A stretch of DNA of 64,000 bases from Candidatus Saccharimonadota bacterium (GTDB taxonomy: Bacteria > Patescibacteriota > Saccharimonadia > Saccharimonadales > Saccharimonadaceae): assembly GCA_017404335.1 (NCBI GenBank), contig JAFRCN010000004.1, positions 62,001-126,000 of the forward strand, in the 5' to 3' direction. The notes under the pieces were generated by a model that made no database searches, was not told where the DNA came from, and was given only the letters and a program-made list of their open reading frames with translations. A program made the position numbers and the translations under genes. Position 1 is the stretch's first letter. Every line of letters begins with the position of its first letter. Positions 4,309 through 63,208 of this stretch are shown here, one piece after another.

Positions 4309-5424
4309 ATGAAGTATTTGGCGGTGCTGGGAAGACAACCAGAAATATCCATAGCGGAGCTAGAGGCTACCAATTTTTGTACTGATACAAGTCGCCTCGG
4401 AGGGACTATGAAATTGGCGGAGGAAATTGGTTCTAGTCCGCTGGAGTTTTTGAAAAATCTGCCGGAGGGGAAGATTACGCTTGGGGTGAGTGATTATTCT
4501 AAAAATGCGTCGCAGAGGACGGCGGTAAATGAGGCGCTAAAGCTAAAGAAAATTTTAGTTAGGCACGGACGGAGCGTCAGAGTGGTTGAGAATAAAGATG
4601 CTACGCTTAGCACGGCGACGTCTTTACATAACGGGCTTTCAGGGAAGAACCCGCGGAAGGTCGAGTTGATTAAGGTCGAGAATGAATGGTTTAGGGTTAT
4701 CGGAGTGCAAGATATTGAAGCGTACGCTCGGCGCGACCAGGCGAGGCCGGCGAGGGATGCGAAAGTTGGGATGCTTCCGCCGAAGTTGGCGCAGATTTTA
4801 ATCAATCTTTGCGGACCACTGCCAAAAGGTGCTACAATCTTAGACCCATTCTGTGGAACCGGTGTGGTGCTACAGGAAGCTTTACTCATGGGCTATCGAG
4901 CATATGGGACCGACATAAGTGAGCGAATGGTCGAATACGCTAATAAGAACCTGAATTGGTTTGTTTCTTCGCTTTCTCGCTCGCGCCCGTCGTTACGGGG
5001 CTCGCTCGAAACTGCTCCCCGTTGGTCGCAATGCTCAGAAACCAACCAATTTCAGGTTCTGGTTGGTGACGCGACGTCGTTTACTTGGGAACAGCCGATT
5101 GATGCGGTGGCCTGCGAAGGGTATCTTGGAAGACCGTTTTCGAAAATTCCGACAGAGATAGAGCTAAAGGAGCAAAAACAGGAATGCGGAGCGATTTTGC
5201 GCGGGTTTTTAAAGAATTTAGCTTTGCAGGTAAAGTCGGAGACGCCGGTCGTCGTGGCGGCACCGGCATGGCTTCGGGAAAACGGTGATTATTCTAGGCT
5301 CGATATTATTGACGAAATTGAAGATATGGGGTATAATGTTAATAATAAAACGCGCGAGGGGCTTCTTTATCGTCGAGAAGGGCAAGTCGTTGCGAGAGAT
5401 ATATTAATTTTAAGGAAAAAATAG
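4309..5424 (+). CDS. Trm11/TrmG10-like RNA (guanine-N2) methyltransferase with a palindromic in-frame insert
   Basis: 371 aa Rossmann methyltransferase. SAM-binding motif I is DPFCGTG at 179-185, and TDIS at 201-204 holds the acidic ribose-binding residue. The preceding RRDQARPARDAKVGMLPPKLAQ-type signature (141-162) is characteristic of Trm11/TrmG10-type tRNA m2G10 enzymes. Motif IV reads CEGYLG (269-274), where classical N-methyltransferases have (D/N)PPY, so catalytic details may differ. Residues about 213-250 are encoded by a palindromic element (4947-5059) and are absent from the expected fold. rpmA starts at the next base after the stop. Confidence 0.8.
   Translation: MKYLAVLGRQPEISIAELEATNFCTDTSRLGGTMKLAEEIGSSPLEFLKNLPEGKITLGVSDYSKNASQRTAVNEALKLKKILVRHGRSVRVVENKDATLSTATSLHNGLSGKNPRKVELIKVENEWFRVIGVQDIEAYARRDQARPARDAKVGMLPPKLAQILINLCGPLPKGATILDPFCGTGVVLQEALLMGYRAYGTDISERMVEYANKNLNWFVSSLSRSRPSLRGSLETAPRWSQCSETNQFQVLVGDATSFTWEQPIDAVACEGYLGRPFSKIPTEIELKEQKQECGAILRGFLKNLALQVKSETPVVVAAPAWLRENGDYSRLDIIDEIEDMGYNVNNKTREGLLYRREGQVVARDILILRKK
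4947..5059. repeat. Palindromic insert C inside the Trm11-like gene
   Basis: Arms 4947-4968 and 5037-5059 are reverse complements with one gap and one mismatch. The core between them contains CCCGTCGTTACGGGG, a small hairpin, then GCTCGCTCG, and later CCCCGTTGG and ATGCTC. This core aligns with insert D in dusB (30071-30185): GTCGTTAC, GGGCTCG, CCCCGT and ATGCTC occur in the same order. The insert is read in frame without a stop. Confidence 0.8.
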
Positions 5425-21646: not shown

Positions 21647-22451
21647 GGCTTTGGGGCAGCACTGGTTGTACAACCGCGAGGTCCTAGACTATATAGCAAG
21701 TGAAGCCAAGGGTGTGGCGTGTCCTTCGGACACGCTCCGGGCCGCTCTGGCCAAGTCTTCATGTTCCGCAGGACACATCACACCCTTGGCCTCACTTGCT
21801 TTAGAGATAGGGCCGGGGTTGGGGACATTGACTGCTTCGCTGCTTAGGCGATTTGAGAAAGTGGTGGCGGTGGAGTTTGACGCTAAATTGGCGCGGAATT
21901 TGCCGGGGTCGTTTCCGGGGAAGAATCTCGAGGTCGTGAATGCGGATTTTTTGAAGTTTGACCTCGCGAAGATGCCGGAGGATTATGTAATTGCGGGAAA
22001 TATTCCGTATTATATTACAAGTCCGATTATTGAGAAGATTTTGACGGCGGGGAGGTTGCCGAAACGGGCGGTATTGTTGATTCAAAAAGAAGTCGCGGAG
22101 CGGATTGCGGACGAAAAAGAGACGGGATTGTCGTTGTTTGTGAAAAATCGAGCTTCGGTGCGACTTGGGCCGGTCGTGTTAAAGGGAGAATTTACACCGC
22201 CGCCGAAGGTGGATTCGCAGGTAATTATTTTGGAGCCGTTTTTGGACGGGCCAAAATACCCGGATGAATTATTTAAGTTAATTAGAGCTGCTTTCACGGC
22301 ACCGAGGAAGAAGCTGATACATAACTTAAGTCAGTTGAAATCAAAAGAGGAATTAGGGGAGATTTTTGGGAAGTTAGGAATTAGTTTAAACGCTAGACCG
22401 GCCGACCTACATTTAGATGATTATTATAGACTTTATTGTGATATAATGTAG
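21636..22451 (+). CDS. rsmA: 16S rRNA dimethyladenosine transferase with a palindromic in-frame insert
   Basis: 271 aa. It methylates the two adenines near the 3' end of 16S rRNA. The KsgA signature ALGQHWL opens the protein at the ATG chosen here; a longer frame reaching back to 21498 would run through the upstream gene. Motif I is LEIGPGLGTL and motif IV NIPYYITSPI. Between LDYIASEA and LALEIGPG, where the family has only a short linker, about 23 extra residues come from palindrome B. The serS promoter lies in its last codons. Confidence 0.93.
   Translation: MVDKALGQHWLYNREVLDYIASEAKGVACPSDTLRAALAKSSCSAGHITPLASLALEIGPGLGTLTASLLRRFEKVVAVEFDAKLARNLPGSFPGKNLEVVNADFLKFDLAKMPEDYVIAGNIPYYITSPIIEKILTAGRLPKRAVLLIQKEVAERIADEKETGLSLFVKNRASVRLGPVVLKGEFTPPPKVDSQVIILEPFLDGPKYPDELFKLIRAAFTAPRKKLIHNLSQLKSKEELGEIFGKLGISLNARPADLHLDDYYRLYCDIM
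21695..21800. repeat. Palindromic insert B inside rsmA
   Basis: Arms 21695-21716 and 21779-21800 are reverse complements at 21 of 22 positions. The core 21717-21778 has hairpin 1 GTGTCC-TTC-GGACAC, linker CTCCGGGCCGCTCTGGCC and hairpin 2 TGTTCC/GGACA. Against insert A the core differs mainly at paired positions: C-G in A becomes T-A in B in hairpin 1, and the same exchange appears in hairpin 2. It is read through in frame in rsmA. Confidence 0.9.
22442..22447 (+). promoter_or_regulatory. -10 element (TGA-TATAAT) of serS inside the rsmA end
   Basis: Ends 6 nt before the serS ATG at 22454; embedded in the final codons of rsmA. Confidence 0.75.
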
Positions 22452-29924: not shown

Positions 29925-30977
29925 TCACTCGCTGAAAGTAGAAGGATTTAAGATAATTTTTCTAGCTTCAGCAACTGAATGAGTCTCCATGAGTTTAGCT
30001 CTAATGTCGGAGGCACCTGGAAAATTATTAATGTAGATTTTGAAAAAGTGCTTTAGAGGTTCATAAGGTAGAACGTTTAGATACTGCTTCTCGGAACGCT
30101 CCCTCGCTCCTGTCGTTACAGGGCTCGGTCGCTCCGTATTTTCCCCGTCGGAAAATATGCTCCTCGAAGCAATATCTAAACGTTCTTGATAAAGCCCAAG
30201 ATGTAGCTTTAATAATTCGATTAACTCGTCTCTTGTGGGGGTGTGAGAGGTGAAGCAGTAGGGGTTTTGGAAGACGCCGCGGCCGATCATGAAGCCGTCG
30301 ATTTCGGGGTATTTTTCGTGTAATTCGAGAGCATGGGCGCGATTTTTGATGTCGCCGTTAATGATTAACTTCGTTTCGGGACTGATTTGGTCGCGGAGGG
30401 CGAGGATTTCAGGGATGAGCTCGTAATGGGCGGGGACTTTGCTCATCTCTTTTTTAGTACGGAGGTGGACGGTCAGGGCGGCGGGGTGTTCGTTTAGTAA
30501 AATCGGGAGCCAGTCGCGAAATTCGTCGGGAGAGGACCAGCCGAGGCGGGTTTTAATCGAGACGGGGAGATTGGTAGAATTTTTTGTATTTCTAAAACAT
30601 TCGACGGCGAGATCGGGAGTTTTAATCATGGCAGAGCCACCGCCGGCGCGGTTGACGTTTTTGTCGGGACAGCCAAAATTGAGGTCGATACCAGAGAAGC
30701 CAAGGGATTCAAGCGCGTCGGAAATTACCGTAAAATGCTCAGGATTCTTGCCCCAAATTTGCGCGATAATCGGAGAATCAGTAGGGGCGATTTTGAGGCG
30801 CTCAAGGGCATTCGCGCGGCCTTTTTCGGAGGCATAAGAAGAGACGTTAGTAAATTCCGTGAAAAAAAGATCCGGGCGACCGGCATGAGCCACGACTTGG
30901 CGAAACATAATATCAGTCACGCCTTCCATCGGGGCGAGAATTAAAAACGGTTTTGGTAAATTTTGCCAAATATTCAT
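29925..30977 (-). CDS. dusB: tRNA-dihydrouridine synthase with a palindromic in-frame insert
   Basis: 350 aa from the ATG at 30977; a longer frame to 31013 runs back through the promoter (TAAAAT at 30985-30990, 7 nt before this ATG). FMN-binding TIM barrel with LAPMEGVTD, catalytic Cys in NFGCPDKNV, KTRLGW, and GDIKN and GRGVFQNPY. Between YQERLDIAS and NVLPYEPLKHFFKI about 30 residues rich in Ser, Arg and Glu come from palindrome D. Which Dus subfamily it belongs to (A/B/C) is a guess. Confidence 0.9.
   Translation of the reverse strand: MNIWQNLPKPFLILAPMEGVTDIMFRQVVAHAGRPDLFFTEFTNVSSYASEKGRANALERLKIAPTDSPIIAQIWGKNPEHFTVISDALESLGFSGIDLNFGCPDKNVNRAGGGSAMIKTPDLAVECFRNTKNSTNLPVSIKTRLGWSSPDEFRDWLPILLNEHPAALTVHLRTKKEMSKVPAHYELIPEILALRDQISPETKLIINGDIKNRAHALELHEKYPEIDGFMIGRGVFQNPYCFTSHTPTRDELIELLKLHLGLYQERLDIASRSIFSDGENTERPSPVTTGARERSEKQYLNVLPYEPLKHFFKIYINNFPGASDIRAKLMETHSVAEARKIILNPSTFSE
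30071..30185. repeat. Palindromic insert D inside dusB
   Basis: Arms 30071-30090 and 30166-30185 match as reverse complements at 19 of 20 positions. The core contains CCTGT-CGTT-ACAGG, then GGGCTCGGTCGCTCCG, then TTTTCC-CCGTC-GGAAAA. In plus orientation it aligns with insert C: CTCGCTC, GTCGTTAC, GGGCTCG, CCCCGT and ATGCTC in the same order. The element lies in opposite orientation relative to its gene compared with insert C, and is still free of stops in frame. Confidence 0.85.
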
Positions 30978-31020
30978 CGAGCATATTTTACCATATTTAC
31001 CTCTGTAAAGCAAGCTATGA

Positions 31021-61699: not shown

Positions 61700-63208
61700 A
61701 TGGCGAAAACGTTTTTCTTCTATGATTTAGAGACTTCGGGTTTAAAACCGCGCGAAGACAGGATTATGCAGTTCGCGGGGCAGAGGACTTCGATGGATTT
61801 AGAGCCGATTGGGGAGCCGATTAATGTCTTGATTAAGCTGACGAATGACGCTTTGGTTTCGCCGGGGGCGATTATGGTGACAAAGATTACTCCGCAAGAA
61901 ACTCTAAGGGATGGAATTTCTGAAGCGGAGTTTTGCAAATTCGTCATGGAAGAGGTGTTTGTGCCGGAGACGATTGCGGTTGGGTTTAACACGGTTAGAT
62001 TTGACGACGAGTTTATGCGGGCTTGTCTTTGGCGGAATTTTTATGATCCGTATGAATGGGAATGGAAAGATATGCGATCGAGATGGGATATGCTCGATGT
62101 GGTAAGGATGACGCGGGCGCTACGGCCGGAAGGAATAGAATGGCCGTTTACGGAAGATGGAAAAGCAACGAATCGGTTAGAATTAATTACGAAGTTGAAT
62201 GGGATTTCGCATGAGCATGCACACGATGCTTTGTCGGATGTTTATGCGACGATTGCGGTAGCAAAATTAATTCGTGAGAAACAACCTGAGCTTTTTAACT
62301 TCTTGTTCTTGATTCGAGGGAAAAATGAAGTTAAAAAATATGTTAATTTGGAAAACAAAAAGCCGTTTGTCTACAGTTCGGGTAGATACTCTTCCGAATT
62401 TAATAAAACTACGGTGGCGTTTCCGCTGGCAAGTTCTAGAAATGGAAACATATTAGTTTACGATTTGAGATATAACTTAGAAGTATTCTTGGCTGAGCCT
62501 GCTTTTTCTTCAGCGGGACTTGAATTTTCAAGCACGTCATACACTGGTGCGCCGAGAGAACCGTCCCTTCGGGACGAACCTCTCGGGCACGTCAGGAATA
62601 TACGTGTTGAAAATTCAAATCAAGATATGCTTCAGAAAAAGCAGACTTCAGCCAATCATCCTAAGATATTTCCAATTGTAAAGGAATTATGCTTCAATAA
62701 ATGTCCAGCGGTGGCGCCGTTTACGGTTTTGGATAAGGATAATGGATGGGGGAAGATTGGGCTGTCGAAAGATATTGTAATGAAGAATTTGGAGGTCTTA
62801 TTAAAGCATCCGGACTTCGCGGAGAGGCAGAGAAGCGAATATGAGAATCGTCCGGAATTTCCGAAGGCGCCGGAGCCAGAGATGGCGCTCTACGATGGGT
62901 TTCTAGATGATACGGATAGAATAAAAGTCTCGGCAGTGAGAAATGCGGAAGCGAATAAACTGGCGGATTTTCATCCAGACTTTCATGACCAGAGATTGCC
63001 GGAATTATTATTACACTATAAGGGGAGAAATTTTCCGGAGTCTTTGTCAGAATCTGAGGCTTCTGAATATGAAAAATATCGGAAAGCGAGACTAGAACGA
63101 CTTGCACCGAGTTTCTTAAAGGAACTTTCGGAAGTTTATGGTCGGGATGAATATATCGGAGAGGAATTAAAACTGTATTTTGAGAGTCTTTTTGACACAG
63201 ATTATTAA
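61700..63208 (+). CDS. sbcB: Exodeoxyribonuclease I with a palindromic in-frame insert
   Basis: 502 aa DEDDh 3'-5' exonuclease: FFYDLETSG (D and E of ExoI), VGFNTVRFDDEFM (ExoII) and HEHAHDALSDVYATI (ExoIII, H and D), followed by the SH3-like and helical domains (WGKIGLSKDIVMKNLEVLL, YDGFLDDTDR). Residues about 265-318 come from palindrome E and separate LEVFLAEPA from the HPKIFPIVKELCFNKCPAVAP segment, which is normally close by. Likely functional if the loop is on the surface. Confidence 0.92.
   Translation: MAKTFFFYDLETSGLKPREDRIMQFAGQRTSMDLEPIGEPINVLIKLTNDALVSPGAIMVTKITPQETLRDGISEAEFCKFVMEEVFVPETIAVGFNTVRFDDEFMRACLWRNFYDPYEWEWKDMRSRWDMLDVVRMTRALRPEGIEWPFTEDGKATNRLELITKLNGISHEHAHDALSDVYATIAVAKLIREKQPELFNFLFLIRGKNEVKKYVNLENKKPFVYSSGRYSSEFNKTTVAFPLASSRNGNILVYDLRYNLEVFLAEPAFSSAGLEFSSTSYTGAPREPSLRDEPLGHVRNIRVENSNQDMLQKKQTSANHPKIFPIVKELCFNKCPAVAPFTVLDKDNGWGKIGLSKDIVMKNLEVLLKHPDFAERQRSEYENRPEFPKAPEPEMALYDGFLDDTDRIKVSAVRNAEANKLADFHPDFHDQRLPELLLHYKGRNFPESLSESEASEYEKYRKARLERLAPSFLKELSEVYGRDEYIGEELKLYFESLFDTDY
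62491..62653. repeat. Palindromic insert E inside sbcB
   Basis: Arms of about 46 and 52 nt (62491-62536 and 62602-62653) match in blocks: GGCTGA, CTGCTTTTTCT, TTGAATTTTCAA and CACGT with small gaps. The core is one long nested hairpin: GTGC/GCAC, CCGAGAG/CTCTCGG and CGTCCC-TTC-GGGACG. The CCCTTCGGG apex is shared with insert A. The insert is stop-free in frame. Confidence 0.85.

Follow-up and report, generated by a model that had tools for sequence, protein, structure and literature searches.

A palindromic in-frame insert in dusB belongs to a dispersed Saccharibacteria family whose cores follow the GC-skew strand

Selfish palindromes carried inside genes are already known in Rickettsia and Wolbachia. 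Rickettsia palindromic elements (RPE) measure 105-146 bp and occupy conserved genes, in frame, as well as intergenic regions (PMC2229807); different RPE groups can be found at nearby places in orthologues (PMC3767692), and their repeats reportedly become less alike with time (PMC6649704). Template switching has been documented as a process that homogenises the arms of inverted repeats and inverts their spacers in coding DNA (PMC8604942), and that creates and maintains hairpins with compensatory changes in their stems (PMC8794818).

We describe here a palindromic insert, designated D, in the dusB gene of a Saccharibacteria genome (G000; 686 kb, six contigs). The window, i.e. the whole stretch of 64,000 nucleotides that was analysed, corresponds to positions 62001-126000 of its contig C2. 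D and its relatives recall RPE and their Wolbachia counterpart (PMC2229807, PMC3767692): in-frame palindromes apparently translated with their hosts, conserved host genes (QueA in both), several families and nearby placement. Their taxonomic range is different. A scan with an exact IUPAC pattern of the D core, with one genome per species, returned 56 stretches, all 56 from Candidatus Saccharibacteria (by their titles mostly ruminant-gut metagenome assemblies) and none from Rickettsiales. A strong GC-skew polarity was observed in the elements described here. Unlike RPE, which are said to lose repeat identity (PMC6649704), they have stems that covary from one orthologue to another; 105 of 106 copies lie in ORFs, RPE being found between genes too (PMC2229807). 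The elements work like RPE, without sequence kinship outside Saccharibacteria within reach of the exact pattern.

Other known systems were also compared. The coding palindromes of Nematomorpha mitochondria are likewise inverted repeats kept in genes with both arms coding, and template switching has been proposed there; these repeats are perfect and reach 284 bp, whereas a conserved mobile core lies here between imperfect arms (PMC6649704). Arm homogenisation, spacer inversion in coding DNA and compensatory stem changes (PMC8604942, PMC8794818) liken the present elements to products of template switching, which is a mutation mechanism and not an element, and which may act on the D family. REP sequences are small palindromic repeats too, but measure 20-40 bp and are extragenic by name (PMC3733652), and the Y1 transposase of the REP/RAYT pair is missing in 39 of 40 genomes of the genus. 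Of the two terminal hallmarks of MITEs, the elements have inverted arms, and no consistent target-site duplication was seen by eye, the loops being too variable. No earlier account in Saccharibacteria, Patescibacteria or CPR was recognisable by title or abstract opening, in a search that mostly covered journals other than subscription ones.

D is a 117-nt segment of dusB whose ends (30070-30095 and 30161-30186, 26 nt each) are 88% complementary and enclose 65 nt (Table 1). The predicted fold comprises a closed stem, P1, and two internal hairpins, P2 and P3, forming a three-way junction. Folding of the D strand gives -65.6 kcal/mol when modelled as RNA (shuffled mean -32.3) and -35 when modelled as DNA (shuffled mean -14.2), values equalled by none of the shuffles in either case. 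A related insert is absent from the corresponding loop in 27 of 30 dusB orthologues of the genus (those fetched first), and the dusB genes of G003 and G006 carry another core subtype at this position. D is confirmed as a genuine insert, a palindrome of about 100-150 bp with dispersed copies.

Table 1. Coordinates of the inserts, their parts and their host ORFs in the window
Feature	Position	Strand	Basis and remarks
Insert D, entire palindromic element (arms and core) in dusB	30070..30186	-	inverted repeat; RNA fold z -9.5, DNA fold z -8.0; in-frame in dusB
81-nt core of D (family F1)	30088..30168	-	8 other full-length copies in own genome; HMM match
5' arm of D (core orientation)	30166..30186	-	site-specific; pairs with 30070-30090
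3' arm of D (core orientation)	30070..30090	-	site-specific; pairs with 30166-30186
P2, internal hairpin of D, covarying stem	30137..30157	-	fold; covariation
P3, internal hairpin of D	30098..30132	-	fold; covariation
dusB ORF, contains D and reads through it	29925..31013	-	NCBIfam DusB E 4e-40, under curated cut-off
Insert C (sister family S2) in methyltransferase ORF of the + strand	4947..5059	-	arms 4947-4967 and 5038-5059; fold; S2 HMM match 5055-4952 minus
Methyltransferase ORF, contains C	4309..5424	+	name from reading of translation
Further palindromic in-gene insert, other core, ORF read as rsmA	21689..21806		42-nt arms, 86% complementary; fold -81.4
Further palindromic in-gene insert, other core, exonuclease ORF read as sbcB-like	62496..62647		31-nt arms, 74% complementary; fold -81.1

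Full-length 81-nt cores number nine in this genome, D included, the other eight being 83-96% identical to D; weaker or partial matches are also present. With a covariance model of the core (E<=1e-3), matches were obtained in 103 of 118 genomes of the genus, at 0 to 29 matches per genome, and a blast search of a 60-genome set gave matches in 11 genomes, all inside the genus. Ten copies were found in G003. The D-family (F1) set used below contains 106 distinct copies that scored 34 bits or more with the HMM, drawn from the strongest model matches and their surroundings. Carriage by phage or plasmid was rejected, since searches of phages, plasmids and viral contigs gave no match. Two F1 cores (L214 4001-4114, in ileS of G007, and L208 4001-4114) contain about 33 additional nucleotides, which in L214 form a hairpin-like stretch in the P3 region.

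To describe polarity, leading and lagging strands were assigned from GC skew alone, the local G-rich strand being taken as leading; as a general rule, leading strands are G-rich. Skew is positive on the + strand throughout the stretches of contigs C2, C4 and C6 of G000 (up to about +0.28), and where genes lie on both strands, third-codon-position skews agree nearly always. It is negative in C3 and C6 and positive in C2 of G003. In G000 the skew does not change sign around dnaA, so that 'lagging' denotes here an assignment by skew, the origin not being placed. F1 cores were on the lagging strand in 92 cases, on the leading strand in 11 and ambiguous in 3 (n=106), and 19 of 23 host-gene clusters had mainly lagging cores (P 0.003). 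Insert C gave a match to the HMM of D-type cores on the minus strand (5037-4976, E 3e-6), as did D itself, and belongs to a subfamily sister to that of D. For this family, S2, the distribution was 28 lagging, 1 leading and 1 ambiguous, the S2 HMM having been built from 17 weak F1-HMM matches, most of which are included in the 30 counted.

Core orientation relative to the host gene is sense in 87 of 106 copies and antisense in 19. For genes on the lagging strand (80 copies), 77 cores were lagging, i.e. sense, and 3 leading; for genes on the leading strand (23 copies), 15 were lagging, i.e. antisense, and 8 leading, i.e. sense. These 8 of 23 indicate that the sense orientation is also preferred. 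At the argS site, all eight copies are lagging: in G007, where argS is carried by the opposite skew strand, the core is antisense, and in the seven other copies it is sense. Both core orientations occur in queA and in tatD, apparently at one site in each gene. Cores thus follow the chromosomal GC-skew strand (the C-rich, presumably lagging one), gene direction mattering less. The sequence-only reading had observed that the C and D cores lie on one genome strand and their host genes on opposite ones, which holds, and had seen in this shared orientation a sign of stop-free adaptation; orientation tracks the GC-skew strand instead. When both strands are folded as ssDNA, the more stable hairpin is that of the core strand in 98 of 106 copies, by 2.5 kcal/mol on average, so that with the usual polarity the weaker hairpin lies on the lagging-strand template.

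We consider it probable that D is a selfish, non-autonomous, RPE-like translated palindrome of ~115-120 nt, whose spread or retention is coupled to replication and in which stem pairing is maintained at the DNA level. Such an element would enter conserved housekeeping genes in frame, at places encoding tolerant loops of the protein, and then be translated. The strand rule would reflect spread or survival coupled to the replication fork, on the lagging strand. Stems would stay paired because hairpins are corrected in the DNA itself; the probable agent is template switching by the polymerase, which could also flip the core between its arms. Genes may serve as refuges, since random deletion of the hairpin there would destroy the frame. 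A stronger version, which we put forward tentatively, sees mobile DNA hairpins governed by the fork throughout: fork direction would set polarity at entry, the core would flip in place when gene polarity changes, and template switching would rewrite the stems, so that covariation of the RNA kind would arise without RNA function. With model matches in 103 of 118 genomes, several families, empty and filled sites in many species and a clear polarity, the mechanism is testable in this genus.

Each full-length copy of G000 is bordered by arms that pair with each other and are unlike those at most other sites. Across the 106 F1 copies, a copy's own arms pair at -24.9 kcal/mol on average, against -10.4 when arms are swapped between sites; in 23 copies from several genomes the means are -26.3 and -10.5, and all 23 adopt the three-way shape. 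This site specificity, next to cores that remain 83-96% alike, is what would be expected if arms were made at each insertion: the core would land, its TTC/GAA ends would snap back and the polymerase would copy the flanking gene, yielding an inverted duplicate of the target. Inserts of another family in trmD point in the same direction, native conserved codons (KFA) being found in their 5' arm and mirrored in the 3' arm. However, the copies in obg and in the P-type ATPase gene of G000 have the same arms around the core and those of nifS are similar, hence arms are able to move with the core; sequences of the inner arm, like the position of one bulge, also reappear at different sites, and in most genes the empty loops are too variable for a native arm to be told. 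We therefore regard this origin of the arms as unlikely. Its strict form, in which every arm is an inverted copy of its target, is weakened by arms common to several genes and by arms homologous between orthologues.

Returning to the replication-coupled palindrome, we examined stem pairing in three alignments of 6, 17 and 7 orthologous or related copies. Cells compatible with pairing in the named structure made up 95.9, 97.9 and 98.1% of the total, respectively, and cells altered on both sides numbered 42, 63 and 26, against shuffled means of 13.8, 15.6 and 8.6 (0 of 500 shuffles each). The signal was lost on sliding the partner, and the three stems of the D family covary. When orthologues were compared in pairs, both-sided stem changes exceeded one-sided ones for flanks at least 5% different (379 vs 209 in the 15-25% bin), these pairs sharing sequences and hence not being independent. 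The eight closest pairs (flanks less than 5% different) gave 8 one-sided and 0 both-sided changes. This argues against stem changes all being double at birth; compensation in steps is just as possible. These data fit a mutation on one side whose partner is later repaired, via selection or template switching.

Such strong covariation, with conserved junctions, would ordinarily suggest a structured RNA domain under host selection, that is an mRNA hairpin regulating or timing expression, whose covariation expresses RNA function. One G-U pair of the core is almost invariant, G-U exceeds A-C among the mismatches of the alignments (29 vs 14), and the cores are mostly in sense, as an mRNA function would have it. 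Yet the same core is used antisense in 19 of 106 copies, and the insert is absent in many orthologues. The arms show no wobble preference on the mRNA strand: when wobble was disallowed, G-T and A-C single mismatches numbered 16 and 11 in the sense copies (P 0.44), and 6 and 1 in the antisense ones. The two wobble tests lean differently by method, an mRNA-strand signature is not clear, and mRNA-level selection was not retained on this ground. Rfam hits above the gathering score were tRNAs only, in a search of the window and of loci L139, L149 and L150, a set that includes D and six other F1 copies. An RNA domain appears to us rather improbable; strong stem covariation is not necessarily proof of RNA function.

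The selfish palindrome also has to be reconciled with the proteins that contain it. Among F1 copies, 105 of 106 lie in frame in a stop-free ORF of at least 130 codons. The earlier view of a mobile element living inside genes is borne out in this respect; relative to the ~88% of bases that lie under ORFs, the enrichment is not significant when assessed by host cluster. Cores are read in four frames: + offset 1 (53 copies), + offset 0 (34), - offset 1 (10) and - offset 0 (8). As survivorship would have it, none of the 106 uses the + offset 2 frame, in which both the D core and the consensus contain a stop. The - offset 2 frame is open and is also used by none. With four frames in use and the closed one never, it is the nucleotides that are conserved and no single peptide. 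That the insert is translated through seems the simplest reading. It might instead be spliced out or bypassed, in the manner of an intron or of yeast mitochondrial byp, with arms acting as splice or hop signals, as the long stem joining both flanks and the conserved nature of the hosts could suggest; an excised element would need neither a long stop-free frame nor avoidance of the closed one (0/106), and we give this very little credence.

Hosts named by NCBIfam include DusB, ArgS, P-type ATPase, ObgE, QueA, TrmD, IleS (loci L101-L130), LeuS, ValS, an RlmD-like methylase, TatD, TsaD, NifS, MiaA, DNA polymerase I, TruB, MnmA, a RarA-type ATPase, a FemX-like enzyme and oligoribonuclease. For DusB, P-type ATPase, RlmD-like, TatD, NifS, RarA and FemX, the best-scoring model falls under its curated cut-off, a general P-type ATPase model passing its own. 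Conserved Saccharibacteria proteins, among them aminoacyl-tRNA synthetases and tRNA-modifying enzymes, thus contain element-derived segments. By inspection, F1 hosts look rich in genes for tRNA aminoacylation and modification.

It had been proposed from the sequence that the core is adapted to be stop-free from both strands, with comparison to shuffled sequences as the check. Five of the six frames of the D core are stop-free and the sixth contains TAA. Dinucleotide shuffles of D have 2.75 open frames on average (P of at least 5 open, 0.028), and random 81-mers of the window 2.2; for the family consensus core, the same probability is 0.067. The excess of the D core is therefore marginal, with one sequence family behind the figure. 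Because the used frame has to be open, the test was restricted to the five unused frames. In a set of 27 sequences from trmD and ileS, each an insert or long loop of at least 75 nt (several kinds, not every long loop being confirmed as a hairpin, and the rsmA insert being left out), 51 unused frames were open vs 46.4 expected from shuffles keeping the used frame open. The stop-free argument therefore fails this check as a general property, and a special adaptation is unnecessary.

Sites are reused between genomes. One loop in trmD and one in ileS are empty in some genomes and filled with unrelated cores in others, and three sites of argS are empty or filled across genomes. Parsimony on a tree built from a three-protein concatenation, with empty and filled sites scored by eye, required 7 steps for 12 carriers of 25 genomes in trmD (25 of 30, without G024, G030, G013 and G032, which have long loops, and G060, which is remnant-like), 7 steps for 10 carriers of 26 in ileS (26 of 30, without G034, G030, G024 and G021) and 8 steps for 9 carriers of 25 at argS site c (25 of 30), where F1 alone has 4 carriers and 4 steps. 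Repeated gain or loss of inserts, or their transfer from one species to another, must be common. A single vertically inherited insertion per site was rejected, carriers being scattered on the species tree and on the argS-flank tree, the latter built from saturated DNA and possibly wrong. With positions and families turning over between species, and copy number ranging from none to 29 model matches inside one genus, it is barely credible that the elements are a chromosome-organising strand-biased signal with an incidental hairpin shape, despite their very strong strand polarity; known strand signals, such as KOPS and Chi, are far shorter.

As to how the palindromes move, no consistent target-site duplication was visible by eye at the inspected loci, whose loops are too variable. 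The search for a partner enzyme covered the Y1_Tnp and RVT_1 profiles. Of 40 genomes of the genus, one had a Y1 transposase (PF01797), and G000 had none; reverse transcriptases were found in 26 of the 40 and not in G003 despite its 10 copies. This distribution does not support either enzyme as partner. Four RVT_1 genes, with open frames of ~410-440 aa, are present on contigs C1, C2 and C5 of G000. In trmD of G060 (L097), a short loop resembles a left arm and the start of another core family, and is likely a partly deleted insert. The rsmA insert of the window shares, by eye, a motif with the trmD inserts of G062 and G035.
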